A stretch of DNA of 22,106 nucleotides from a virus (IMGVR_UViG_3300024255_001095:1-22106), one strand, 5' to 3'; positions 7,835 through 20,825 are shown, counted from the stretch's first letter. The notes: generated by a model from the letters alone, not told the origin. Made by a program: numbers and translations.

Positions 7835-8068
7835 ATGGAAGATACGCAAATAGTTGATATCTGGACATTGTTTAAAGAATATGTCGATAAAAAACACGTT
7901 GAGCAGGCTGCTGAACGTTATGTAGATTTAATGGCCGATTGTGGCACAGAAGATCAATCATTTATTTCTGCACTAGGTCACGATACTGCGTTAGATATTG
8001 CTATCAATTATTATCTAGATCTTGATGATGATGACGTATTAGAAGAAGAAGTAGAGTGGGATGAATAA
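7835..8068 (+). CDS. Small acidic protein between uvsX and uvsY, unknown function
   Basis: 77 residues, function not recognised. It is largely helical, with a WTLFKEYVDKKHVEQAAERYVDLMAD segment pattern (described here by its ends), a central SALGHDTALDIAINYYLDL stretch and a strongly acidic tail (DDDD, EEE). It begins three bases after the uvsX stop, has a GAGGAG Shine-Dalgarno inside the end of uvsX, and its stop shares a base with the next start (TAATG). The coupling suggests a role linked to recombination, perhaps as a partner protein. Small acidic proteins next to uvsX occur in marine T4-like phages as far as I recall. Confidence 0.8.
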   Translation: MEDTQIVDIWTLFKEYVDKKHVEQAAERYVDLMADCGTEDQSFISALGHDTALDIAINYYLDLDDDDVLEEEVEWDE

Positions 8069-8523
8069 TGGGTTGGTATAGCGAAGTATCTCGTGACATA
8101 AGCAAAATACCACAAGCAGTTGCCTACTTTGAAAACGAAATAGTTGATGCTCGCAAAGAGGTTAAACTAGTTGGAAATGTAGAACGTGCGGCAGCAAGTA
8201 TGCCAGGTATTGTTGAACAACGATTCAATCAACTTCAGGAGATTGAAGCTATACTAAACTATTTAAATATTGAGCTACGCAGATTGCGTAGTTCATTTTT
8301 TAAGAAATATCTTGAAAACTATCAACGAGCTCTGTCAAGCCGTGACGTTGAAAAATACGTAGACGGTGAGGCAGATGTCGTTGACTATGAAAAGATTATT
8401 AATGAGTTTGCATTATTGCGTAACAAATGGTTAGGGGTACTCAAAGCACTTGATCAAAAACAATGGCAGATTACAAACGTAGTTAAGCTAAGAGTAGCGG
8501 GTATGGAAGATGCCACGTTATAA
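8068..8523 (+). CDS. uvsY: Probable recombination mediator UvsY
   Basis: 151 residues against 137 in T4 UvsY. UvsY is a helical oligomer that helps UvsX load on gp32-covered DNA. Supporting features: helical content throughout, a basic central stretch (ELRRLRSSFFKKYLENYQRAL), and a C-terminal layout where an acidic turn is followed by Y-E-K-I-I..F..L...W..VL.AL..K.W.I..V..LR..GM. This parallels the end of T4 UvsY (a W-containing helix, then K-x-R-G-F-x-I-K-x-I-x-x-x-R). Position two genes after uvsX and in the same operon agrees. The start overlaps the previous stop by one base (TAATG) after a GAGTGGGATGA purine stretch. Similarity is at pattern level, hence the moderate score. Confidence 0.72.
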   Translation: MGWYSEVSRDISKIPQAVAYFENEIVDARKEVKLVGNVERAAASMPGIVEQRFNQLQEIEAILNYLNIELRRLRSSFFKKYLENYQRALSSRDVEKYVDGEADVVDYEKIINEFALLRNKWLGVLKALDQKQWQITNVVKLRVAGMEDATL

Positions 8524-9160
8524 TGTATTATTAGGATGCGATCAAAAATACTACGATGACTGGGCAGTACCTTTACTAAAAAGTATTCATTTTCATAATC
8601 CGTGGATTAACTTACACTGTCATATTGTAAATCCAACAGTTGAAAATTCTTTAGATAATGTTAGTATAACTACTGAAAAAAGAGAATTTTTAAACTCCGA
8701 TAGTAAAATAGCATATCTACAAGCGGTAAGATTTTTAGTAGCAGCTGAGAAATTTTCTAATAATGAAAACGTAGTTACCCTTGATGCAGACAGTATCTGT
8801 ACACGCCCAATAATCAGACCTACTGAAATTAAACATCTTTTTGAAAAGCAATATGTTTTAAAACATCATAAAGAAGATAGGTGGCTCGCCGGACTTGTAG
8901 TGTTTAATCAAAATGGCTTTAGGCAAGAATTAAATAAAGAATTAACATCAGTTCCGTTTGATAATTGGCAATGGGGCAGAGATCAAATAGTGTTAAATAC
9001 ATTTGCAAACGAATTTAATTTTCAGACAGTTGGCAATCAATGGATGTCAATAGGAAAAAATAAATCAAATAGTGCGTTTTTAACATTAAAAGGTAATCAA
9101 AAAGTTAAAGAAAAATTTTTAATTAATTACCGAAGATACAGGGATCAAGATACAGAATGA
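8510..9160 (+). CDS. GT-A-type glycosyltransferase-like protein
   Basis: 216 residues. It opens the accessory glycan cassette. The N-terminus (RYNVLLGCDQKYYDDWAVPLL) has the beta-strand and leading-residue pattern of GT8-like transferases. LDAD (91-94) fits the DxD metal and nucleotide-sugar site. WLAGLVVFN and WGRDQ (about 125-133, 155-159) correspond to the acceptor-side motifs of such enzymes. Donor and acceptor cannot be read from sequence. It overlaps the end of uvsY by exactly 14 nt, with a GGAAG purine stretch just before the ATG, so it is translationally coupled to the recombination operon although functionally unrelated. The protein lacks membrane segments. Confidence 0.7.
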   Translation: MPRYNVLLGCDQKYYDDWAVPLLKSIHFHNPWINLHCHIVNPTVENSLDNVSITTEKREFLNSDSKIAYLQAVRFLVAAEKFSNNENVVTLDADSICTRPIIRPTEIKHLFEKQYVLKHHKEDRWLAGLVVFNQNGFRQELNKELTSVPFDNWQWGRDQIVLNTFANEFNFQTVGNQWMSIGKNKSNSAFLTLKGNQKVKEKFLINYRRYRDQDTE

Positions 9161-9717
9161 CATTAGAAGAACATCTTGGTGGCCACAACGGAAAGACACA
9201 TTTAGATCGTGGAACGCTAGAATGGGCAAAGGCTACATTTGGCATACAGTCGATGATAGATGTTGGTTGCGGCCCAGGCGGTATGGTAGAATTAGCAAAT
9301 AACATAGGAATAAAAGCAACAGGAATAGACGGAGACTATACTTTAGATCGCTACGATAATAGTAAGTTTATAATTCACGACTTTACAAAAGGACCTGTTC
9401 CGATAACAGAAAATTACGATCTTGCTTGGAGTGCAGAGTTTGTCGAACACGTATACGAAGAATATATTCCTAATTATGTTCAGGCTATGCAACAAGCAAA
9501 ATACTTAATAATGACATACGCACCGATTGGTCACGGCGGCTATCATCACGTAAATGAAAATACACAAGAATATTGGATAGAGACAATGTCTAAATATAAC
9601 TTTACATATGACGAAAATTTAACTAATCAAATGCGACAATCGTCAACAATGGGCAAAAAGAAGAAACATCAATTTGTCAAAAAAACAGGACTTTTATTTA
9701 AAAATGAACAGAGATAG
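9157..9717 (+). CDS. SAM-dependent methyltransferase, class I
   Basis: 186 residues. Motif I is MIDVGCGPGG (33-42), which binds S-adenosylmethionine; the acidic end of the next strand is GIDGD (56-60); WSAEFVEHVYEEYIP (about 91-105) is the motif IV/post-motif region typical of small-molecule and sugar methyltransferases. No DNA-methylase DPPY motif is present, so methylation of a sugar or lipid in the cassette pathway is more likely than DNA methylation. Its ATG overlaps the previous stop by four bases (ATGA). The basic tail (GKKKKHQFVKKTG) is unusual. The substrate is unknown. Confidence 0.8.
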   Translation: MTLEEHLGGHNGKTHLDRGTLEWAKATFGIQSMIDVGCGPGGMVELANNIGIKATGIDGDYTLDRYDNSKFIIHDFTKGPVPITENYDLAWSAEFVEHVYEEYIPNYVQAMQQAKYLIMTYAPIGHGGYHHVNENTQEYWIETMSKYNFTYDENLTNQMRQSSTMGKKKKHQFVKKTGLLFKNEQR

Positions 9718-10627
9718 TTTAGTAGTAGCTATTGAGGAAATGTATAGGAATCATCCTATACCTAAGTTTCCTAATTTTAAATTAGTATCCTGGAATGACA
9801 AAGATACACTTGCATCAGCTGATGTTTTTTTACAGCATAACATAGCTGGACAAAAACGTAAAAAATTAGAAAAATATTATCAATATATTTTAGACAGTGG
9901 CAAGCCTTTTATAGTTGCCGAAGCTCCGGTGTTTCGTCGAAATATGAAACAGTCTGGTTGCCCCGGAGCATATCATAGATTTAGTTGGACTAGTTATTTT
10001 CAAAACGAAGGAAACTATTGTAATAAAGACTCGCCACCGGATAGATGGAACAGAATACAAGCAGAACAAAAAATTACAATTAAAGATTGGCGCACTACCG
10101 GAGACTATGTTTTACTAATTTTACAGCGTCCTGGAGACAGTAGTCTAAAAAACTTGTTAGAAAAACACGGATCGTATGAAAACTTTCTCACGTTTACATT
10201 AAATGAGATTAAAAAATATACCAACCGACCTATACGTGTACGAATGCATCCTTTACGCCAAGACCGTCAATTAGAAGCATTAAAAAACTTTGATGTTGAT
10301 ATTAGTATAAACACCTTAGGAAGTCGTCAAGGTCACGGCGTTACAGAAGGCGGCGACGGATTGTACAAAGACTTTAAAGACGCATATGCCGTAGTAGGAT
10401 TCAATAGTAATGCATTAACTGAAAGTATATGCGAAGGCATTCCTACATTTAGTATGTGTTCTAGTTCAATGGCTTGGGATTGTAGTAATAAAGATTTATC
10501 TCAAATAGAATCACCAGAATTATTTGATAGACAACAATGGCTATATAACTTAGGTTATTGTCAATGGCGTGAAGATGAAATAGCACAAGGCACTCCTTGG
10601 TTTCATCTATTAAAACGTTACAATTAA
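9704..10627 (+). CDS. Capsule/Kdo-transferase-like glycosyltransferase, paralog 1
   Basis: 307 residues. I start it at the ATG at 9704 (14-nt overlap with the methyltransferase) rather than the TTG at 9674. The C-terminal half has the GT-B signature shared by all five paralogs: a strand YVLLILQRP (135-143), RPIRVRMHP (175-183), GFNSNALTESICEGIP (232-247), then DRQQWL and a final G-x-P/A-W-x-H-L. This layout resembles capsule polysaccharide synthesis proteins of the KpsC/KpsS type, which are Kdo transferases. The N-terminal half includes NEGNYCNK...DRWNR (101-117), also conserved among paralogs. It has no clear Shine-Dalgarno. Donor and acceptor are unknown. Paralogs 3 and 5 are its closest relatives by motif. 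Confidence 0.62.
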   Translation: MNRDSLVVAIEEMYRNHPIPKFPNFKLVSWNDKDTLASADVFLQHNIAGQKRKKLEKYYQYILDSGKPFIVAEAPVFRRNMKQSGCPGAYHRFSWTSYFQNEGNYCNKDSPPDRWNRIQAEQKITIKDWRTTGDYVLLILQRPGDSSLKNLLEKHGSYENFLTFTLNEIKKYTNRPIRVRMHPLRQDRQLEALKNFDVDISINTLGSRQGHGVTEGGDGLYKDFKDAYAVVGFNSNALTESICEGIPTFSMCSSSMAWDCSNKDLSQIESPELFDRQQWLYNLGYCQWREDEIAQGTPWFHLLKRYN

Positions 10628-10661
10628 TAAACCATTCTAAACTTTTATTATATTAGCACAT

Positions 10662-10669
10662 AATAAATA
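10662..10669 (+). promoter_or_regulatory. Late-promoter-like octamer abutting the nucleotidyltransferase-cupin gene
   Basis: AATAAATA ends six bases before the A of the ATG at 10675, the same spacing as at gp17 and the 654-residue gene. It lies in the 47-nt gap after paralog 1, the only sizeable plus-strand gap between 8510 and 14878, and no Shine-Dalgarno precedes the ATG. It differs from TATAAATA at one base. Confidence 0.4.
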
Positions 10670-10674
10670 CCAGT

Positions 10675-11433
10675 ATGAATATAGTTTTAGTCACAGGCGG
10701 ATTTGATCCGCTACACTCCGGACACATAGAATACTTTAAAGCAGCGAAAGAACTAGGAGATCACTTAGTTGTAGGTGTTAATAGTGACGAATGGTTAACA
10801 CGCAAAAAGGGCAGACCTTTTATGTCGTTTGATGAACGGTGTGCAATTATAAAAGAACTTAGTGTTGTAGATGAAGTTATAGGTTTCAACGACATAGACG
10901 ATACTGCTAATCACGCAATATTTCAATTACAAAGCACAACAGGGTCAAGTACGAAAATTATCTTTGCTAATGGCGGGGATAGAACAAAGTCTAATATACC
11001 CGAAATGCAATATACTAATGTAGAATTTGTATTTGGCGTAGGCGGCGAGAACAAAGCCAACAGTAGTAGTTGGATACTCGACGAATGGAAGACCCAAAAG
11101 ACTGAACGCGACTGGGGCTACTGGCGTGTGTTAGATCACAAACCTGAGCAAGGTTATAAAGTAAAAGAACTTGTAATATATCCGGGTAAAAGTTTAAGCG
11201 ATCAAAAGCATTTCTTACGATCAGAGCAATGGACTGTACTTGAGGGTACAGTAAAAATGGATACAGAGTGGAATAATGTACAAAGCTGTATAATATTAGA
11301 ACAACATAGTAGACCATTTGAAATTGGTAAAGAAGTATGGCATCGAGCAAGCAACCCAGGTGCCGAAAATACCCATATACTAGAAGTACAATGGGGAGAA
11401 CAATGTGTGGAGGAAGATATTGAAAGAAGATAA
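10675..11433 (+). CDS. Nucleotidyltransferase fused to a mannose-6-phosphate-isomerase-type cupin
   Basis: 252 residues in two domains. Residues 1-about 135 form a cytidylyltransferase/adenylyltransferase fold: VTGGFDPLHSGH (6-17) with the HxGH nucleotide motif, GVNSDEW, a GRPFMSFDERCAII segment and NGGDR. Relatives activate glycerol-3-phosphate, heptose-1-phosphate or similar as CDP- or ADP-derivatives. Residues about 145-252 resemble the cupin of type II phosphomannose isomerases: WGYWRVLD, GYKVKELVIYPGKSLSDQKH, then LRSEQWTVLEGT and VWHRASNPG. In the family the central motif is usually SEHW; here it is SEQW, so one His metal-ligand position appears changed to Gln. The domains could make and activate one sugar phosphate. 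A late-like octamer abuts its start. Confidence 0.75.
   Translation: MNIVLVTGGFDPLHSGHIEYFKAAKELGDHLVVGVNSDEWLTRKKGRPFMSFDERCAIIKELSVVDEVIGFNDIDDTANHAIFQLQSTTGSSTKIIFANGGDRTKSNIPEMQYTNVEFVFGVGGENKANSSSWILDEWKTQKTERDWGYWRVLDHKPEQGYKVKELVIYPGKSLSDQKHFLRSEQWTVLEGTVKMDTEWNNVQSCIILEQHSRPFEIGKEVWHRASNPGAENTHILEVQWGEQCVEEDIERR
11409..11413 (+). promoter_or_regulatory. Shine-Dalgarno that selects a TTG start at 11420
   Basis: GGAGG lies six bases upstream of TTG 11420. The GTG at 11405 precedes this site and has no comparable element. The choice gives a 14-nt overlap with the upstream gene, matching four other junctions in the window. Confidence 0.65.
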
Positions 11434-13123
11434 ATTAAAAATTTATGTAGGCTGGGACCGAAGAGAAGACATTGCATACCAAGCGTGTAAGCAGAGTATT
11501 CTTGATACAGCAACCGTCGAAGTAGATATTATTCCGTTGAAACAAAAACAACTTAGAAAAGACGAAATGTACTGGAGAGAAAAGGATAAACTTGCAAGTA
11601 CAGAATTTACATTTACTAGATTCCTTGTTCCTGAGCTTCAAGAGTTTGATGGCTGGGCTTTATTCATTGACTGTGATTTTATTGCACTTACTGACATTAA
11701 ACAATTGTTTAACCAAAGAGACGACAAGTATGCAGTAATGTGTGCTCAGCACGATTACACACCTAAAGAAGGTACTAAGATGGACGGGCAGAAGCAAACG
11801 GTTTATCCACGTAAAAATTGGTCTAGTATGATGTTAATTAATTGTGGACATCCTTCTAATAAACAACTAACCAAAGAGCTAGTTAATAACGAAGAAATCA
11901 CCGGAGCATACTTACATAGATTTAGCTGGCTTGATGACAGCGAAATTGGTGAGTTAAGTCACGAGTGGAATTGGTTAGTAGGCTGGTACAAAGAACCAGA
12001 AGATGGCAAGCCTAAACTGTTGCACTATACAGAAGGCGGCCCGTGGTTTGAACAATATCAAAACTGTGAATATGCAAATGAATACTATAAAGCCGAACGT
12101 AAATATCTTACTAGTGAGTATCACAACATATCTAATAAATTAAGTACTGAAAAAAGAATACCTAAATTAGTTAACAATTTATCATTGCCTGATAGTTTAC
12201 GGCAATCAATTGAGGCTTTTACATATGCAACAATTGATCCCAAAGGAACTTACTATGGCTACACTGAGGAAAATGCTATGAAAATTATACAGAATAAATT
12301 TCAACAAGGAAAGACTGCAAAGGTAGCAGCAATATTTAATGACGACTTAAATTATGATAATAAATCGTACGTATACGATGAATATCTAGAAGCACTAAGT
12401 TTAGGCAGCGGTGGCAAATTAAGTAGTTGGGATAAAGAAAAAAATACAGATACTCCACTAATTATTCGAGGAGTTGGAAAGTCTAGTAGAGAAGCAGTTA
12501 AGCACTGTTGGGAAACTGGTAGAGAGTTTTATGCAATTGATACAGGTTATTTTGGCAATTCAAAAAGTAAGTCTAAAGGTTGGCATAGAGTTACAAAAAA
12601 TAACTTACAAGACTATGGTCCAATTATTGAACGTCCTACAGATAGATTACTAGGATGGAAATATAGAAAATTTAAAAAAGGAAGTAGAATATTAATTTGT
12701 CCTCCTAGTGATAAAGTTATGAAATTTTTTGATCAACCAACTCCTGAAGAATGGACAAAACAAATAGTAGCACAATTAAAGGACATTACTGATAGACCAA
12801 TTCAAGTTAGATTAAAACCTAACAGAACACACAGAATAACTGGTAATTCTATCGAAGAAGCACTAGAAAAAGATATTCATTGTCTTATAACATACAATAG
12901 CATTGCTGCCTTAGAAGCATTAAATTTTGGAAAACCTGCTATTGCACTTGGTCCTAATTGTGCGTCAATGGTATGCAATACCAAATTAGAAGAAGTAGAA
13001 AATTTACACATACCGGACAAAGATGAGATGACTGCATTAATGTCGCATCTTAGTTATTGTCAATTTTCAAGAAATGAGTTGATGAACGGTTTTGCTTGGG
13101 ATACTGTTAATGAAAGTCGTTAG
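11420..13123 (+). CDS. Two-domain glycosyltransferase: GT-A domain fused to Kdo-transferase-like paralog 2
   Basis: 567 residues from a TTG preceded by GGAGG. The N-terminal domain (about 1-235) is a GT-A transferase: KIYVGWDRREDIAY, the FIDCDF metal motif (82-87), HDYTPKE, YPRKNWSSMMLINCGH (129-144) and HYTEGGPWF (202-210). After a linker, residues about 298-567 match paralog 4 closely: IDTGYFGN, ILICPPSDKVM (424-434), RPIQVRLKP (459-467), TYNSIAALEAL (491-501), GKPAIALGPN, HLSYCQF and NGFAW. The second domain belongs to the capsule/Kdo-transferase-like GT-B group. The fusion may add two residues in sequence, or pair synthesis and transfer steps. Substrates are not predictable. Confidence 0.75.
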   Translation: MKEDKLKIYVGWDRREDIAYQACKQSILDTATVEVDIIPLKQKQLRKDEMYWREKDKLASTEFTFTRFLVPELQEFDGWALFIDCDFIALTDIKQLFNQRDDKYAVMCAQHDYTPKEGTKMDGQKQTVYPRKNWSSMMLINCGHPSNKQLTKELVNNEEITGAYLHRFSWLDDSEIGELSHEWNWLVGWYKEPEDGKPKLLHYTEGGPWFEQYQNCEYANEYYKAERKYLTSEYHNISNKLSTEKRIPKLVNNLSLPDSLRQSIEAFTYATIDPKGTYYGYTEENAMKIIQNKFQQGKTAKVAAIFNDDLNYDNKSYVYDEYLEALSLGSGGKLSSWDKEKNTDTPLIIRGVGKSSREAVKHCWETGREFYAIDTGYFGNSKSKSKGWHRVTKNNLQDYGPIIERPTDRLLGWKYRKFKKGSRILICPPSDKVMKFFDQPTPEEWTKQIVAQLKDITDRPIQVRLKPNRTHRITGNSIEEALEKDIHCLITYNSIAALEALNFGKPAIALGPNCASMVCNTKLEEVENLHIPDKDEMTALMSHLSYCQFSRNELMNGFAWDTVNESR

Positions 13124-14036
13124 TTACTATAATGTAGTTCCTAATAAAAATAAAAGCCAAGAAAAATTTGATATACTTACTAAATTTATTCAAGGCGTAA
13201 ATGCTGCCGGGGATACTGGAATTGTACACAAAGGATACGACTTGCAAAAGTGTGACGTTGGAATGATTCAAGGCTGGCAACACGAAGTTGGTAAAAATGC
13301 CCCTCACTTACAGTTACGACAGCGTGTAATGAATAATACATCAAATACACACGTATGTACAGCAGACGCGAACTTGTTTTTATACGCAAACAAAACTAAT
13401 CGCCCTCATCACTATTTAAGATATAGTTTTGACGGTGTATTTCCAAATACTGGCAATTACTTCGACGATAATCCTAATCCTAAACGTTGGCAACAAATTT
13501 CTAAACATTTAGATATAGCTCTTGAAAACCGAAAGAAAGGAAAAAATATTGTAATTTGTTTACAGCGCAATCAAGGCTGGAGTATGGGAGCATTATCTGT
13601 AACTAGTTGGTTAGAAACTACTATTCCAAAAATTTTAAATCATACCGATCGAACCATTGTTATTAGACCGCACCCAGGTGACAAAAAAGCCATAACTCAA
13701 TACTTACCACAACTAATACAAAAATATCGAAACAATAAAAACATTAAAGTTTCGATGCCTGGCTCGCCTTTAGATCAAGATTTAAACAAAGCGTGGGCTG
13801 TTGTAAATCATAATAGCAGTAGTATTGTTGGACCACTAATACAAGGATATCCTGGATTTATTACAGATCCAGATAAGAGTCAATGTGTAGAAGTTTGTCA
13901 CACAGACTTTAGTAAAATAGAAAATCCTCAAGAATTTGATCGACAAAAATGGTTAGAACGTATTAGTATGTTTCATTGGAACTTCCAAGAATTAACAGAC
14001 GGTACAGCGTGGAAACATATGAGAGAATATGTATGA
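13110..14036 (+). CDS. Capsule/Kdo-transferase-like glycosyltransferase, paralog 3
   Basis: 308 residues from the ATG at 13110, giving a 14-nt overlap with the fusion gene; a TTG at 13092 was not preferred. Shared signatures: NTGNYFDDNPNPKRWQ (113-128), strand NIVICLQRN (146-154), RTIVIRPHP (181-189), VVNHNSSSIVGPLIQGYP (231-248), then DRQKWL and GTAWKHM at the end. The N-terminal half (MKVVSYYNVVPNKN..., then QGW and HEVG) differs from paralogs 2 and 4, so acceptor or donor choice probably differs. It belongs with paralogs 1 and 5, which have RPHP or RMHP rather than RLKP. It is coupled to paralog 4 by an ATGA overlap. Confidence 0.62.
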   Translation: MKVVSYYNVVPNKNKSQEKFDILTKFIQGVNAAGDTGIVHKGYDLQKCDVGMIQGWQHEVGKNAPHLQLRQRVMNNTSNTHVCTADANLFLYANKTNRPHHYLRYSFDGVFPNTGNYFDDNPNPKRWQQISKHLDIALENRKKGKNIVICLQRNQGWSMGALSVTSWLETTIPKILNHTDRTIVIRPHPGDKKAITQYLPQLIQKYRNNKNIKVSMPGSPLDQDLNKAWAVVNHNSSSIVGPLIQGYPGFITDPDKSQCVEVCHTDFSKIENPQEFDRQKWLERISMFHWNFQELTDGTAWKHMREYV

Positions 14037-14878
14037 AAGTTGTTAAGGTCGCTGCTATTAATATGGATTCAACTTCTTATGAGTGCAACTTTCGTTGCGA
14101 TTCTATTTTACAAAACTTTGCAAAAGGAATCAATAAGCAGTTGTTACCCGCAAGTGATGCAATTACACATTCATTGCCTTTAGTAGGAAGAGGTATGTCA
14201 GAATCTGTAGGCAAATATATTTTATTGTCTATGAAAAATAATTTACCATTTTATCATATTGATACAGGGTATTTTGGTAATGTTAAAAGAAAAGTATGGC
14301 ATCGAATTACATACAATGGATTTCAAAACACAAATACAATTGTCCCTCGAGACGAACAAAGATTGTCTCAACAACTTTTTTCTTATTTTGGACAAGATGT
14401 AGAAATACCACTAGAAAAAAAGATTAATTCATTTACTCCGGGTAAAAAAATATTAATATGTCCACCTAGTAAAAAAGTTATGGGATTTTTCCAACAGCCA
14501 AGACCGCAGGAGTGGACTGAGAAAGTTATTAAAGAGTTAAGACAATATACTGATAGACCTATTGAAGTGCGCTTAAAGCCTAGTAGAACTGATAGACAAA
14601 CTGTTAAAAATATGAAAGATGCATTAAAGGATGATATACATTGTTTAGTAACATACAACAGTATTGCTGCTACGGAAGCATTAATGGCAGGAAAACCTGC
14701 TATTGTACTTGGACCAAATGCCGCACAATCTATATGTGAAACGGATCTAAAAAATATAGAAAATCCAAAAATTCCAACTCAGAGCGAAATGATTGCATTC
14801 TTAACGCACCTATCTTACTGTCAATTTACACAAACAGAAATGTATAATGGGTTTGCTTGGAAACACCTACAGCATTAG
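14033..14878 (+). CDS. Capsule/Kdo-transferase-like glycosyltransferase, paralog 4
   Basis: 281 residues from an ATG overlapping the previous stop by four bases (ATGA). It is close to the second domain of the fusion gene: FYHIDTGYFGN (73-83), WHRIT, KILICPPSKKVM (139-150), RPIEVRLKP (175-183), TYNSIAATEAL (207-217), GKPAIVLGPN and HLSYCQF, ending GFAWKHL. It lacks the GT-A half, so it is either a duplicate that lost it or the source from which the fusion was built. Nucleotide identity between the two copies is patchy, so the duplication is not recent. Its stop codon is directly adjacent to the stop of the convergent gene on the other strand, with no terminator visible. Confidence 0.65.
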   Translation: MKVVKVAAINMDSTSYECNFRCDSILQNFAKGINKQLLPASDAITHSLPLVGRGMSESVGKYILLSMKNNLPFYHIDTGYFGNVKRKVWHRITYNGFQNTNTIVPRDEQRLSQQLFSYFGQDVEIPLEKKINSFTPGKKILICPPSKKVMGFFQQPRPQEWTEKVIKELRQYTDRPIEVRLKPSRTDRQTVKNMKDALKDDIHCLVTYNSIAATEALMAGKPAIVLGPNAAQSICETDLKNIENPKIPTQSEMIAFLTHLSYCQFTQTEMYNGFAWKHLQH

Positions 14879-15721
14879 TTATTTCCAATAATCTTCAGTT
14901 CTATTAACCATTAGATCTTGTGATCGACTTTTGCCTTCTTCTTTTCGAACACCCTTCATATGATCCATCCATTTACCTAACACACTATTAATTAACGGAT
15001 GTCCGCCACCGCCTGTGCGAGCTTCTTTCAAATACATTTCGGCACTATAATCTAACACGTTAGGAAAATCTTTTTTCATATTATTAAGAATGTGTCCAAA
15101 CACAAAACTATCGTGCCATTCTTCTAATAAGAATATACCTTGTTCAGCTTCTTCGTATACACGTTCAAACTCTTTAAGAAACTCGTGGCACACAGGATGA
15201 TTTAAGTTCATACCATAGAAGCCGCACTCCGGCCACGTCTGTGATCCTTTACCTCTGCCTACATATGTTAACCAGGTATTATTTGGCAATAAGTTATTAA
15301 ACTCTTTATGGCTCCAGTCACTGTGTACAAACGTATCTGCATCCATCCATACACACCAGCCTTTAGAACGTGTACAAGCGTCATACACAGCATATGTTTT
15401 GTTAGCAAAGCGTATAGCGTCCCATTTAAATTTCTTGTGCCAATCACGCGGTCTACGTGCTTTAATAGCGTCTGTAGGTATGCCGTTTGCTCTAGGATCA
15501 TTCTTCCAACGTTCTTTAAATGCATTTAATTTAGGCAATACTTCTTTAGCATCAAGAATTGTTATTTGTTCTGGATCAGGATTAATTGGATTGCAGTCTT
15601 CGGCGTACACTAGTAGTTTTATTTTTTTACTAACTCTTTCTGCAAAACTATCTAAAAATCTTTGCCCATATGTGTCTAGTCCAGGCTTATGAAAAGTTGT
15701 AACCACTGTTATTGATGACAT
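14879..15721 (-). CDS. GT-A-type glycosyltransferase-like protein on the opposite strand
   Basis: 280 residues; the only clear minus-strand gene in the window. It starts with ITVVTTFHKPGLDTYGQRFL, has RPRDWHKKFKWDA (90-102), WMDADTFV (125-132) with the DxD site, then ECGFYGMNL and a late LLEEWHDSFVF segment, in the order expected of a GT-A transferase with a donor site followed by an acceptor region. The frame stays open to 15829, but the ATG at 15721 has a good AGAGGA Shine-Dalgarno and avoids overlap with the divergent gene. It converges with paralog 4 stop to stop. The strand switch suggests separate acquisition from the rest of the cassette. Donor and acceptor are unknown. Confidence 0.72.
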   Translation of the reverse strand: MSSITVVTTFHKPGLDTYGQRFLDSFAERVSKKIKLLVYAEDCNPINPDPEQITILDAKEVLPKLNAFKERWKNDPRANGIPTDAIKARRPRDWHKKFKWDAIRFANKTYAVYDACTRSKGWCVWMDADTFVHSDWSHKEFNNLLPNNTWLTYVGRGKGSQTWPECGFYGMNLNHPVCHEFLKEFERVYEEAEQGIFLLEEWHDSFVFGHILNNMKKDFPNVLDYSAEMYLKEARTGGGGHPLINSVLGKWMDHMKGVRKEEGKSRSQDLMVNRTEDYWK

Positions 15722-15733
15722 AGCGTTCCTCTT

Positions 15734-15760
15734 GTTAAATATGTATATGGAGTATTTAAC
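15734..15760. promoter_or_regulatory. Symmetric divergent promoter region
   Basis: GTTAAATA on the plus strand (15734-15741) and the same octamer on the minus strand (15760-15753) form an 8-bp inverted repeat with an 11-base centre. Each faces one of the two divergent genes. With T4 late spacing both transcripts would begin at the same base pair, about 15747, with leaders of 16 and 26 nt that contain GGAG or AGAGGA. The octamer is two changes from TATAAATA, so an operator for a dimeric protein is the main alternative. Confidence 0.35.
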
Positions 15761-15762
15761 CA

Positions 15763-16641
15763 ATGATTTTTTGTCTATACACTGATTATGGCGCACTAAA
15801 CAGTAAGCCAGTGTTCGAAGCATTTGCAAAGAGTGTAATTGACGCTGGCCATAAAGTAGTATACAATGAGCCTTATAGAGTTGGCGGCCATTATAGTAAC
15901 TATGATGTTGCTGTTATATGGAGTGTACTATGGCACGGCAGAATGTCAAAAAATCAAACGGTTTGGGAACAAAATCGTATGTTAGATAAACCTGTTATAG
16001 TATTAGAAGTTGGCGGCATTAATCGCGGCACAACTTGGAAAGTAGGATTAAATGGAATCAACAGAACTGCTTACTTTAGTGACAAAGACAATGATAGGGT
16101 TAGGGCTGATAGCCTGGGACTGGTTTGTAAACCTTGGAGATCCAACGGCGATTATGTTTTAATATGTGGTCAACACGACAAGAGTTTACAATGGCAAGGT
16201 ATGCCTCGTATGAGCAACTGGTTCTTAAATACCTATGACGAAATACGTAAATACACTGACCGACCTATTATATTTCGACCTCACCCACGATGTAGACTAG
16301 AACACATAGAACGTGGTCTTAAACACGTAACAAGACAGGAACCTAAACAAATTGCCAATACTTACGATGATTTTGATATGGGGTTTAATAATGTACATTG
16401 TACTATCAGCTACAGTAGTAACCCTGGCATACATAGTATCATCGCCGGCGTTCCTAGTTTTGTTAGCACTCATAGTCTTGCTTATCCTGTAGCTAACGAT
16501 ATAGACTTTTTACACGATATAGAAAATCCTGTAATGCCAGATCGTATACAATGGTTGAACGACTACGCTCATACCGAATACACAGTTGACGAAATTTCTC
16601 AAGGCTTACCACTTAAACACTTGACATCTAAGATAGTTTAG
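15763..16641 (+). CDS. Capsule/Kdo-transferase-like glycosyltransferase, paralog 5
   Basis: 292 residues, with GGAG ten bases before the ATG. Signatures: a dinucleotide-fold-like start (MIFCLYTDYGALNSKPVFEAF), strand YVLICGQHD (131-139), RPIIFRPHPRC (167-177), TISYSSNPGIHSIIAGVP (214-231), DRIQWL and a closing GLPLKHL. The N-terminal half carries EVGGINRGTTWKVG, unlike the other paralogs. It is the most divergent member but fits the RPHP subgroup with paralogs 1 and 3. A sigma-70-type promoter for the next gene is embedded in its last codons. Substrates are unknown; the family's Kdo-transferase and capsule links suggest a surface glycan. Confidence 0.62.
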   Translation: MIFCLYTDYGALNSKPVFEAFAKSVIDAGHKVVYNEPYRVGGHYSNYDVAVIWSVLWHGRMSKNQTVWEQNRMLDKPVIVLEVGGINRGTTWKVGLNGINRTAYFSDKDNDRVRADSLGLVCKPWRSNGDYVLICGQHDKSLQWQGMPRMSNWFLNTYDEIRKYTDRPIIFRPHPRCRLEHIERGLKHVTRQEPKQIANTYDDFDMGFNNVHCTISYSSNPGIHSIIAGVPSFVSTHSLAYPVANDIDFLHDIENPVMPDRIQWLNDYAHTEYTVDEISQGLPLKHLTSKIV

Positions 16642-16655: not shown

Positions 16656-17873
16656 ATGTTTACAGTAGAAGATTATATAGAACTCCTTACCGGATTCCAA
16701 GGTAGTGCAGACATAACACTAGATAGCAGTGACCATTCTCTTATGTTTAGTTTTGCAAAACAAATATCAAATAGTATACCGTTTACCGACAGGCAGTGTG
16801 ACCTTGCTAAAACAAAAATTAGTTATTACAAAGAACAACTTGAAAAAAATAACTATGAGGTAAACGAGTTATCGCAGTTGCGTATGCCATTGCGTTCTAT
16901 TGACAGAAGTAGATGGATTAAGATTGTTGAATTAAATGATAACGAATTGTGGATAGGCATTAGATTTATTTTTCAAAAGAAATTAATTCTACAACTTGAC
17001 AAATTAAAAAGATTGATGTCAGATTCGCAAGATGCATTTTATGATAAAGAATACAAAATCCATTATTTTAAATTAAGTGAAAGTAACGTATATGATATAG
17101 TAAGCACATTTAAAGACGTTACTAGTTTTGAAGTTCAAGATGAACTTCTTATATATTTTGAAAAGTTAAAAGAAATGAAAAATAATAAACATAATTATAT
17201 ACCAGGCATATACGGAATGCAACTTAAAAACTTACATAGTAAAAGTTTAGATTATGCTATTAGTAATGTAGGTACTCCAACAGCAGATAATCTATATCAA
17301 TTTTACGATCAAAAAGATCGATTAGGATTATACCATTTTGATAAAGACGATTTATCTGAAAGTTTAAAACATCTAACTCCGTTATCGCAAAAGATTGTTA
17401 ATAGAGAGTTTCACCAAGTATTAGTCAATTCATCACAATACACAATTAATAATTTAGCAGAAGTAATACTTGAATTATATCGTTTTCCTTTAGTAATAGT
17501 TTTAAATGAAAAACAATGCTACGACGAATTAGTACAGTTCCATAGAGCGTTTAGTGGTATAATACCAAATGAACGTTGTAGTGTATTATTTAGATTAGAT
17601 AATAATTCAGAAGGTGAGGAATTTAATCAATACATTAAGGCTAATAATCTTAATAATAAGGTTGACAATAATACAAAAATAGTGTATATTAGTAATAATA
17701 AAGTTCCAAAGCCTTTGTTAAAGAGTGATTGGTTACCAATTACTGCTATAACGACTTCCTCGAATAGAAGTGCTGGTGCAAAAACAGATGCATATATCGA
17801 GATGCTAGATCTTGTAATGCATTATGATTCTGATGTAAGTCCTTGGAAACGAAAACAAATAGAGACCCTTTAA
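16656..17873 (+). CDS. Unknown 405-residue protein preceding uvsW
   Basis: 405 residues, not recognised. The N-terminus (about 10-65) has DSSDHSLMFSFAKQI and a TDRQCDLAK pattern. The middle is rich in Leu, Lys and Asp, with W segments (SRWIKIVEL, ELWIGIRF). The last third has alternating hydrophobic strands (PLVIVLNE, CSVLFRLDN, TKIVYISNN) that look like a Rossmann-like or P-loop-derived fold without a Walker A motif, and it ends with an HYDSDVSPWKRK tail. It is coupled to uvsW by a one-base overlap (TAATG) and has its own promoter, so a role in DNA replication or recombination is plausible. Base composition is markedly AT-rich (many AAT/ATA codons). Confidence 0.8.
   Translation: MFTVEDYIELLTGFQGSADITLDSSDHSLMFSFAKQISNSIPFTDRQCDLAKTKISYYKEQLEKNNYEVNELSQLRMPLRSIDRSRWIKIVELNDNELWIGIRFIFQKKLILQLDKLKRLMSDSQDAFYDKEYKIHYFKLSESNVYDIVSTFKDVTSFEVQDELLIYFEKLKEMKNNKHNYIPGIYGMQLKNLHSKSLDYAISNVGTPTADNLYQFYDQKDRLGLYHFDKDDLSESLKHLTPLSQKIVNREFHQVLVNSSQYTINNLAEVILELYRFPLVIVLNEKQCYDELVQFHRAFSGIIPNERCSVLFRLDNNSEGEEFNQYIKANNLNNKVDNNTKIVYISNNKVPKPLLKSDWLPITAITTSSNRSAGAKTDAYIEMLDLVMHYDSDVSPWKRKQIETL
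17662..17690 (+). promoter_or_regulatory. Internal sigma-70-type promoter upstream of uvsW
   Basis: TTGACA (17662-17667), a 17-base spacer and TATATT (17685-17690) lie inside the 405-residue gene. Transcription would start near 17697, about 176 nt before uvsW. It is the third TTGACA/17-base pair in the window, which argues for function, but the AT-rich setting makes chance possible. Confidence 0.45.
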
Positions 17874-19336
17874 TGGCAACTTGCAAACTAATAATTGAAG
17901 ATGAAGTAAACATTAAGCTAGAAGGACTAGAGGTTGATGTACGGAGAAAGCTCGCGAATGCTCTTAAGTTTGAAGTGCCATACGCAAAGTATATGCCACA
18001 ATATAAACTTGGTCGATGGGACGGTAAAGTTGCTTTCTTTGGTATTGGCGGTACTGGTTATGTCAATCATCTTGATGTTGTTAGTGAAGTTTTGCAAAAA
18101 AATAATGTACAAATAATAGACATCGAAGACAACAGGCATCCTATACAATTTGACTTTCAGCCAGTAACAGAACGTTATTGGGCTGATCAAAATGTACGCT
18201 GGCCAAAAGGACATCCTGCAGAAGGTGAAGAAATTATTCTGCGTGACTATCAAGTAGAGTCAATTAACAACTTTTTAAAACATCCACAGAGCTTGCAACA
18301 GATTGCTACTGGTGCAGGTAAAACAATTACTACAGCAACACTTTCACATATAACTGAGCCGTATGGACGTAGTCTTATTATTGTGCCTAACAAGAGTCTT
18401 GTTACACAAACAGAGGAAGACTACATTAACTGCGGACTCGATGCTGGGGTGTACTTCGGCGACAGAAAAGAGTTAGGTAAGACTCACACTATTTGCACTT
18501 GGCAGAGTTTGAATATACTCGACAAGAAGCACAAGGACGGAACAGCAGTATTATCATTAGCTGAGTTCTTAGATGGTGTAAGCACTATTATTGTCGACGA
18601 AGTACACCAGGCTAAAGCAGAAGTACTAAAGAATTTACTTACACGTAATTTAAAGAACGCTCCAATACGTTGGGGACTAACAGGAACAATACCAAGAGAA
18701 AAGTTTGAGTTTGAAAGTATTCATGCTAGTCTAGGTCCTGTGATTGGACAAATTAGTGCTAAAGAACTGCAAGACAAAGGTGTACTATCACAATGTCATG
18801 TTAATGTAGTTCAACTATTAGATGTAGTAGCACACAGTAACTATCAAGAAGAATTAAAATATCTAACAACAAATCAGGCAAGACTAGAATATATAGGCAA
18901 ATTATTAAGCACAGTAAAAGAATCAGGAAACACACTTATACTTGTAGATAGAATTAGTGCTGGAGAAATACTTCAACAACTAATACCAGGTAGTGTGTTT
19001 GTAAAGGGCGATGTAAAATTAAAAGATCGCAAGGAAGCATATGATGAAATCAATCAAGGAACTAACCACGTGGTTATCGCAACATACGGAGTCGCGGCTG
19101 TTGGTATTAACATACCGCGTATTTTTAATTTGGTTCTCATTGAGCCTGGCAAAAGTTTTGTCCGGGTAATTCAAAGTATTGGTAGAGGCGTAAGAAAGGC
19201 AAAGGACAAGGACTTTGTGCAAATTTGGGATATCACGTCATCGTGCAAATTTGCAAAGAGACATTTAACACAACGTAAAAAATTCTATAAGGAAGCAGAA
19301 TATCCATTCACTATAGAAAAAGTAGACTGGAATTAA
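17873..19336 (+). CDS. uvsW: Helicase UvsW (superfamily 2)
   Basis: 487 residues, close to the 503 of T4 UvsW. UvsW unwinds branched DNA and R-loops, stops origin-primed replication and helps recombination. An N-terminal domain (about 1-110, with QYKLGRWDGKVAFF) precedes the helicase core: the Q-type RDYQ (124-127), Walker A ATGAGKT (145-151), DEVH (242-245), GLTGT (268-272) and motif VI QSIGRGVRK (434-442). The ATG at 17873 overlaps the previous stop by one base; an earlier TTG at 17843 lies wholly in the upstream gene and was rejected. The stretch 18421-18540 is clearly richer in GC than its surroundings. In T4 uvsW is next to uvsY; here the glycan cassette and one gene separate them. Confidence 0.95.
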   Translation: MATCKLIIEDEVNIKLEGLEVDVRRKLANALKFEVPYAKYMPQYKLGRWDGKVAFFGIGGTGYVNHLDVVSEVLQKNNVQIIDIEDNRHPIQFDFQPVTERYWADQNVRWPKGHPAEGEEIILRDYQVESINNFLKHPQSLQQIATGAGKTITTATLSHITEPYGRSLIIVPNKSLVTQTEEDYINCGLDAGVYFGDRKELGKTHTICTWQSLNILDKKHKDGTAVLSLAEFLDGVSTIIVDEVHQAKAEVLKNLLTRNLKNAPIRWGLTGTIPREKFEFESIHASLGPVIGQISAKELQDKGVLSQCHVNVVQLLDVVAHSNYQEELKYLTTNQARLEYIGKLLSTVKESGNTLILVDRISAGEILQQLIPGSVFVKGDVKLKDRKEAYDEINQGTNHVVIATYGVAAVGINIPRIFNLVLIEPGKSFVRVIQSIGRGVRKAKDKDFVQIWDITSSCKFAKRHLTQRKKFYKEAEYPFTIEKVDWN

Positions 19337-20216: not shown

Positions 20217-20825
20217 ATGTTTAAAAACATCGATGTAAAGATGATGCTAAAACTTGCGCTGTTGCAAGTTGTAGTCATCACAGTAAGTAACGCACTAGTT
20301 GCGATTCCAGTAGAGATTGCTGGGTTTAAATTAACTTGGGCGGCATTTACGTTCCCATTAGTTATTCTAGCAACTGACTTAACAGTACGTTTGTTAGGTA
20401 AGAACATTGCTAGAGCAACTATTGCCGCGGCATATCCAATTGCAATCATTACAAGTATTGCAGTAGTATTAGCAGAAGGTGCACCAGAGAGTGTAGCAAT
20501 GCGTATTGGATTTGCATCAGCAACAGCATATGCTGTAGGTACGTTTATTGACGTATATGTATTCCAAGCAATTAGAGAGCGTATGAATGTTTGGTGGTTA
20601 GCACCTGCATTATCAACTATTGTTGCAAACGTAATTGATAGTTACACGTTCTTTGCAGTTGCATTCAACAACAGCGCCGATGAGTATATGGCCGCTAACT
20701 GGATGGAAATTGCAGGCTCACAGGCTGTACTAAAAATTGCAGTAGGCTTAATATTATTCCTACCAGCATATGGCTTATTGTTACGTTACCTAAAAGGTAA
20801 AATGAGTGATACTGAAGCAGGTTAA
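20217..20825 (+). CDS. YhhQ/DUF165-type queuosine-precursor transporter
   Basis: 202 residues, with six hydrophobic segments near 11-30, 38-57, 66-86, 97-118, 126-150 and 170-190. The signature TFPLVILATDLTVRLLGKNIAR (split here as TFPLVILATD, then LTVRLLGKNIAR), about residues 45-66, is that of the VUT/YhhQ family, whose bacterial members import 7-cyano- or 7-aminomethyl-7-deazaguanine for queuosine synthesis. The start at 20217 follows a purine-rich GAAAGAAG and lies one base after the cupin stop; a longer frame from 20124 overlaps the cupin and was rejected. No queuosine or deazaguanine enzyme (QueC/D/E/F, Tgt, DpdA) is visible in this window. A phage transporter could raise precursor supply for DNA or tRNA modification. 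Confidence 0.85.
   Translation: MFKNIDVKMMLKLALLQVVVITVSNALVAIPVEIAGFKLTWAAFTFPLVILATDLTVRLLGKNIARATIAAAYPIAIITSIAVVLAEGAPESVAMRIGFASATAYAVGTFIDVYVFQAIRERMNVWWLAPALSTIVANVIDSYTFFAVAFNNSADEYMAANWMEIAGSQAVLKIAVGLILFLPAYGLLLRYLKGKMSDTEAG

Follow-up and report, generated by a model that had tools for sequence, protein, structure and literature searches.

A cassette of Kdo-transferase-like paralogs between uvsY and uvsW in uncultured, mostly marine giant phages

In the viral sequence IMGVR_UViG_3300024255_001095:1-22106, a complete IMG/VR record of 22,106 bases that we call the window, the genes uvsY and uvsW are separated by a cassette carrying five homologous domains that resemble transferases of 3-deoxy-D-manno-oct-2-ulosonic acid (Kdo), the sugar that is a hallmark of Gram-negative envelopes. 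This locus raises a question: Which sugar does a phage handle with so many related proteins, and what does it build? The answer that we consider fairly probable is that the phage encodes an assembly cassette for a Kdo glycan, in which one canonical retaining beta-Kdo transferase is accompanied by several divergent paralogs. Phage lipopolysaccharide (LPS) clusters are usually annotated without any idea of the sugar involved; in this case the fold, the catalytic residues and the synthesis genes nearby agree on Kdo.

Homology and fold of the five domains

The five domains, numbered D1 to D5 from left to right, are homologous in all pairwise blastp comparisons, with E values ranging from 9e-82 (D2-D4) down to 8e-6 (D2-D3). 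Even this weakest pair scores 35.4 bits, whereas 10,000 shufflings of the domains gave best scores of only 27.7-32.0 bits against them. The proposal of five homologous domains between uvsY and uvsW, made in a first-pass annotation of this DNA from the sequence alone, is therefore sustained. The motifs which it ascribed to all five are generally recognizable in the alignment but not universal, since D3 has RTI instead of RPI and D5 has S-S instead of N-S, while the closing motif holds overall but is loose in D2 and D3. The proposed split into two subgroups is exact and agrees with the phylogenetic tree: HP is present in D1 (RMHP), D3 and D5 (both RPHP), KP in D2 and D4 (both RLKP).

Searches of Pfam, PHROGs and PDB sequences with single D proteins, or with the five alone, gave nothing convincing, and matches to PX, MRP-S22, DHO_dh and transposase families were at chance level. 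Family-wide alignments were consequently used. A profile of 108 D relatives (A2), run by hmmsearch against the PDB, placed the beta-Kdo-transferase domain of WbbB on top (E=0.025), aligned at the HP motif; profile A6 found no sequence match in the PDB. When the same 108 relatives were scanned one by one against Pfam (E up to 0.1), DUF6716 was matched in 18 and Capsule_synth in 9, the best value being 1.7e-5.

The AlphaFold2 model of D1 has a predicted local distance difference test (pLDDT) score of 94 and a predicted template modelling (pTM) score of 0.92, and its first 27 Foldseek matches in the PDB are all KpsC, KrkA or WbbB, from 1.5e-7 (KpsC) to 4e-5. Model and structural matches thus bear out the Kdo-transferase-like, GT-B-type fold for D1, which extends to D2-D5 by sequence homology only. 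In the viral structure library BFVD, the best matches of D1 include four proteins of Tetraselmis virus 1 (A0A2P0VP54, A0A2P0VNK4, A0A2P0VP74 and A0A2P0VP72) and one of a Caulobacter phage, at 4e-17 to 4e-11. The algal host of Tetraselmis virus 1 has a theca with Kdo-type 2-keto sugar acids (PMC10762512).

Catalytic residues and paralog classes

Do all five domains have the residues of a Kdo transferase? In the retaining enzymes the nucleophile is the Asp of a QXXXD motif, a Gln binds the Kdo carboxylate, a (K/R)XHP motif binds CMP and a Glu serves as base (PMC9587256; PMC10148158; PMC12887879); the D160A variant of KpsC is inactive (PMC10148158). The R-x-(H/K)-P motif of the first-pass annotation corresponds to the CMP-binding (K/R)XHP motif of KpsC, WbbB and KrkA, which is retained in D1, D3 and D5 and lost in D2 and D4. 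Residue classes were defined on an alignment of 396 relatives, by which the residues of D2-D5 were also placed.

Only D1 has the full set, Glu73, Q141xxxD145 and H182-P183. Its class shows E / QxxxD / HP in 102 of 105 members, the Glu base being present in 103, and the spacing in D1 (72 residues from Glu to Asp, 37 from Asp to His) compares with 74 and 33 in WbbB. The D5 class has E / QxxxS-type / HP in 74 of 78 members, with the Glu base in 77 and a spacing like that of WbbB, and the D3 class has D / QxxxG (mostly QRxGGW) / HP in nearly all of its 92. The D2 and D4 classes lack the nucleophilic Asp of the motif; in 120 of 121 members the Gln is missing and K or R replaces the His, and Asp occupies the base position in 117. 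An Asp lying two residues after the Gln of D5 was considered as nucleophile and rejected, many members having N, T, E or another residue there. Since D2-D5 lack QXXXD, they are not filed as members of the retaining beta-Kdo transferases (GT99/GT107/GT140).

In the tree, QxxxG and QxxxS each have a single origin (support 97 and 99, respectively), and the group without Gln forms nearly one clade in which D2 and D4 lie together, along with both proteins of Pelagibacter phage Mosig. Class signatures and tree together indicate old, separately maintained paralogs. The earlier idea that five paralogs mean five sequential transfers of one kind is not supported, because four of the five lack the nucleophilic Asp and two of these also the CMP-binding His.

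Could D2-D5 then be inactive scaffolds or regulators, leaving D1, where present, as the sole enzyme? The loss of the nucleophile in D2-D5 and of the CMP-binding His in D2/D4, which extends to nearly all members, would fit this explanation, as would the inactivity of KpsC D160A. We nevertheless regard it as unlikely, for D2, D3 and D5 are universal, each with its own strictly conserved signature (such as QRxGGW and QHxKS), and base and HP are conserved in D3 and D5; dead proteins would hardly hold such motifs while D1 is dispensable.

The phage lineage and its Kdo synthesis genes

The phages that carry the cassette form a group whose members are giant, uncultured and mostly marine. Among 163 loci first examined, most of which were brought in by searching with uvsY and the D alignment, all 50 that include both uvsY and uvsW (about 45 contigs) have three to five D genes in between, so that the cassette is general in the lineage and not, as first thought, an expansion in one phage. 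Selection alone does not account for this, given that among the loci picked through uvsY none with 8.7 kb or more downstream is without a D gene. In the nearest relative, G011, D1 and D4 are 85% and 96% identical to those of the window. Another relative, G001 (357,559 bases; L164-L181), has exactly three D genes, all inside the cassette. This contig, with 27 tRNA genes and a tmRNA gene, appears to represent much of the genome of a jumbo phage; a gene for a NodU/TobZ-like carbamoyltransferase, recognized by eye from the sequence only, follows uvsW at a distance of about 8 kb in G001 and of 11 kb in G006 (L182). The isolated jumbo phages XaC1 and Phosso have the same order terL-SSB-uvsX-uvsY-uvsW with a gap between uvsY and uvsW of 1.1 and 2.7 kb, respectively, and no D genes in it. 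Relative to them the cassette is an insertion, as had been proposed, but an old one.

D genes also occur elsewhere. Mosig has a related mini-cassette (L002 10895-14519) with genes like the GT-A gene g8 and the GT8 family of glycosyltransferases described below, two D genes without Gln and a sulfotransferase, and without kdsA. In Caulobacter phage CcrBL9 (L004 6198-10687), tail-fibre genes are immediately followed by a set made up of D-family and GT8-like genes, one GT9-like gene and one for an FkbM methyltransferase. A scan of genome contigs with a podovirus D protein found no bacterial relative, and among bacterial kdsA loci a search for D homologs yielded a single match, which was marginal (L306, E=0.002).

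Another pointer to the sugar comes from genes past uvsW in the relatives. These encode the KDO-8-P synthase KdsA (NCBIfam equivalog, 337 and 340 bits vs a cut-off of 242) and, overlapping or adjacent to it, a KdsB-like CMP-Kdo synthetase (172 and 160 bits, kdsB being the best family and PF02348 above cut-off). kdsA is present in 14 of the 15 contigs that extend at least 7.5 kb past uvsW, usually with kdsB, and lies 1-4 kb past uvsW (up to 4.1 kb; 1.4 kb in G011). In the reverse direction, D genes and uvsW are found upstream in 38 of 44 phage kdsA loci with more than 8.5 kb upstream, and kdsB accompanies kdsA in 75 of 80. The window ends 2.8 kb after uvsW without kdsA, so that this gene is attributed to its phage from the relatives. 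Phage KdsA is about 50% similar to that of many bacteria, which does not single out a host. No isomerase of the sugar isomerase (SIS) type (KdsD) was found in seven large relatives; the precursor would therefore come from the host, suggesting that this is Gram-negative.

A different CMP-sugar, such as sialic, pseudaminic or legionaminic acid, could in principle be the substrate of the D domains, with kdsA and kdsB serving another purpose. The (K/R)XHP motif does occur in sialyltransferases too, and the sugar transferred by one KpsC homolog is pseudaminic acid (PMC12887879). We find this quite improbable, because the nearby cytidylyltransferase scores 172 bits as KdsB and only 20 as PseF, the neighbouring synthase is KdsA and not NeuB or PseI, and QXXXD is described for Kdo transferases.

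Several observations nonetheless weigh against the assignment to Kdo. The TM-scores of D1 to Kdo transferases are only 0.42-0.55, at 10-17% identity, and Capsule_synth (PF05159) never exceeds its curated cut-off in 11 records, while the phage KdsB scores fall under the NCBIfam cut-off of 193. Common descent may account for part of the linkage of kdsA with the cassette. In six kdsA loci no D gene lies within 10 kb, although the contig of one of them (G045) has D genes in another place; kdsA is missing from the 7.9 kb past uvsW in L132, L057 has kdsA but no kdsB, and Mosig, CcrBL9 and ct7QV12 have D genes but no kdsA. Furthermore, phages without D1, such as G001, keep KdsA and KdsB, so that D1 alone cannot explain the need for CMP-Kdo.

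How would a Kdo cassette work, on our preferred reading? CMP-Kdo would be made from host arabinose-5-phosphate by phage KdsA and usually KdsB, as encoded by the sister phages. Judging from fold and residues, D1 is expected to work as a classical retaining beta-Kdo transferase: it would bind CMP-Kdo through the HP motif and Gln141, form a covalent Kdo adduct on Asp145 and, with retention, hand the sugar on to an acceptor that Glu73 activates. D3 and D5 are present in every complete cassette and keep the CMP- and Kdo-binding residues and an acidic base, having lost the nucleophile. Phages devoid of D1 (for instance G001, L132 and L143) keep D2, D3 and D5, and G001 retains kdsA and kdsB as well; hence D5 and/or D3 probably use CMP-Kdo without an Asp nucleophile, perhaps transferring Kdo by direct single displacement (inverting, yielding alpha-Kdo), unless they assist in some other way. 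It is a tentative suggestion, and one about which we have more doubt than conviction, that both are active CMP-Kdo transferases in which Asp has changed to Gly or Ser and the mechanism with it, retaining and non-retaining enzymes having arisen from one ancestor to make a phage-specific glycan of mixed Kdo linkages. D2 and D4 probably do not use CMP-Kdo, because Mosig has only this type and no kdsA; having lost the site, they would act on something else or structurally.

The cassette enzymes, their product and comparison with known systems

From left to right, the window contains head genes, terL, SSB, uvsX, uvsY, the cassette, a gene for a 405-aa protein, uvsW and more small genes. UvsX lies beside UvsY on the left flank (PHROG 97, 3e-67). 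The open reading frames (ORFs) of the cassette are found where the first-pass annotation had drawn them:

8068..8523 (+): uvsY, left flank (PHROG 231, 6.4e-16)
8510..9160 (+): g1, GT-A glycosyltransferase (GT8-like), in the variable part; overlaps the uvsY stop by 14 bases
9157..9717 (+): g2, S-adenosylmethionine (SAM)-dependent methyltransferase, in the variable part (Pfam Methyltransf_11, 4.4e-5)
9704..10627 (+): D1, Kdo-transferase-like domain with the full catalytic signature (AlphaFold2, Foldseek, residues)
10675..11433 (+): g4, nucleotidyltransferase (HldE domain II / cytidylyltransferase-like) fused to a cupin of phosphomannose isomerase (PMI) type; core gene
11420..13123 (+): g5, fusion of a GT8-like GT-A domain (N-terminal half) with D2 (C-terminal half, about 12200-13123)
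13110..14036 (+): D3, with QxxxG, HP kept and Asp at the base position; core gene
14033..14878 (+): D4, duplicate of D2 type (RLKP, without the Gln, Asp and His); restricted to near relatives and a small number of other phages
14879..15721 (-): g8, GT-A glycosyltransferase (GT6/GT8-like fold); ORF open to 15829, start probably near 15721
15763..16641 (+): D5, with QHDKS (QxxxS), Glu base and HP kept; core gene
16656..17873 (+): conserved 405-aa protein, between D5 and uvsW in the entire lineage
17873..19336 (+): uvsW helicase, right flank (PHROG 16, 2.8e-82; ResIII, 7.6e-18)

Plus-strand genes overlap by 4 or 14 bases at uvsY-g1, g1-g2, g2-D1, g4-g5, g5-D3 and D3-D4, which fits an operon read together with uvsY, one glycosyltransferase gene (g8) being opposite. 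In many relatives this gene is also on the minus strand; others have it in the same position on the plus strand, which suggests that the segment was inverted or replaced locally. The constant core consists of the nucleotidyltransferase-cupin, the GT8 domain with D2, D3, g8, D5 and the 405-aa gene, whereas the left part is variable among loci and may include sulfotransferases, polysaccharide pyruvyl transferases, FkbM methyltransferases, GT25, an epimerase or UDP-glucose dehydrogenase. The 405-aa protein has no Pfam or PDB match and has invariant motifs across the lineage; it is not clearly part of the glycan route. Farther right, at 20217-20825, lies a Vut_1/YhhQ-type transporter (Pfam 2.7e-24), probably for a queuosine precursor, beside a cupin and a methyltransferase.

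The three GT-A domains that had been proposed are supported. The family profile of g1 (A3) matches WbbM in the PDB (E=0.0018) and, weakly, LgtC (0.053), with a conserved LDAD; the N-terminal half of g5 matches Glyco_transf_8 (1.5e-6); and the AlphaFold2 model of g8 (pLDDT 89) retrieves GT-A enzymes, among them alpha-1,3-galactosyltransferase at 3.4e-8. The nucleotidyltransferase-cupin is clear (CTP_transf_like 1.1e-15, MannoseP_isomer 1e-17; NCBIfam rfaE_dom_II 1.6e-20, below cut-off), while for the methyltransferase a match is present but weak. The GT-A enzymes would add ordinary sugars, a sugar or polyol in nucleotide-activated form would come from the nucleotidyltransferase-cupin, and the methyltransferase would decorate the product, as might sulfo-, pyruvyl- or FkbM methyltransferases elsewhere in the lineage. 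A role in glycan building, as first proposed, is thus supported; calling the route complete was too strong, because the window lacks the Kdo donor pathway and a search of the seven large relatives revealed neither an ABC-2 exporter nor a KdsD-type isomerase.

Where would the glycan go? Most likely a precursor of the host envelope would receive it in the cytoplasm: Kdo and the HldE-like nucleotidyltransferase, together with the absence of exporter genes, favour LPS core or capsule precursors. Bacterial capsule loci usually have their own polysaccharide exporter, and without one the host machinery would be needed. The main alternative is that the same enzymes move Kdo and other sugars onto a virion protein, decorating tail fibres or capsid. 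The tail-fibre neighbourhood in CcrBL9 makes this nearly as plausible a destination; the cassette proteins all appear soluble, none having a hydrophobic stretch suggestive of a membrane segment, the failure to find an exporter is in line with this destination too, and variable decorating enzymes fit antigen-like variation. Yet the cassette sits among recombination genes, overlapping uvsY, and not among structural genes, and its chemistry is typical of the LPS core, for which reasons we take virion decoration to be possible and lean against it. The same recombination neighbourhood might instead recall DNA hypermodification, which is frequent in jumbo phages, with the cassette enzymes glycosylating phage DNA. 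This earlier suggestion has found no positive support and appears highly improbable: only a single thymidylate synthase is present in G001, enzymes of the sulfo-, pyruvyl- and FkbM kinds suggest a polysaccharide, and we know of no DNA modification with CMP-Kdo.

If the Kdo assignment is right, the paralogs offer a natural experiment on the gain or loss of the double-displacement mechanism, with Asp, Ser, Gly or none of them fixed in separate old groups, and a fragment of an uncultured phage yields several directly testable enzymes. A search of the open-access literature on phage CMP-Kdo, or KdsA with glycosyltransferases, revealed no study that connects Kdo synthesis in phages with a set of paralogs resembling Kdo transferases. 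The closest enzymes are WbbB (GT99), KpsC (GT107) and KrkA (GT140), which share with the D family the fold (Foldseek 1e-7), QXXXD in D1, (K/R)XHP in D1, D3 and D5, and the matching acidic base. Sequence similarity to them is negligible, and the D domains are single, about 300 aa long, phage-borne and arranged in sets of three to five paralogs, four of the five window copies having no nucleophile and two no His. Among viruses, a marine virus with KdsA, NeuA and LPS genes (PMC5332604) and the report of kdsA and kdsB as viral auxiliary genes (PMC10653327) resemble this lineage in having Kdo synthesis genes; in the passages considered, neither dedicated Kdo transferases nor a uvsY-uvsW cassette are connected with them. 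Cafeteria roenbergensis virus with its Kdo pathway (PMC9614988) and Tetraselmis virus 1 with its capsule-type proteins are likewise large viruses with Kdo synthesis or structurally similar transferase paralogs, but they are giant viruses of eukaryotes with no shared gene order shown. The LPS or capsule clusters of cyanophages and jumbo phages (P-SSM2 type; PMC7824862) come nearest in composition, with paralogous glycosyltransferases, a HIGH-type nucleotidyltransferase, a cupin and a methyltransferase. They differ in that the present cluster centres on a Kdo-transferase-like family together with kdsA/kdsB, the cassette being fixed between uvsY and uvsW, and that its core has no PfkB kinase or epimerase. 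The cassette belongs with the known surface-glycan clusters of phages, but it is built on an unnamed glycosyltransferase family.

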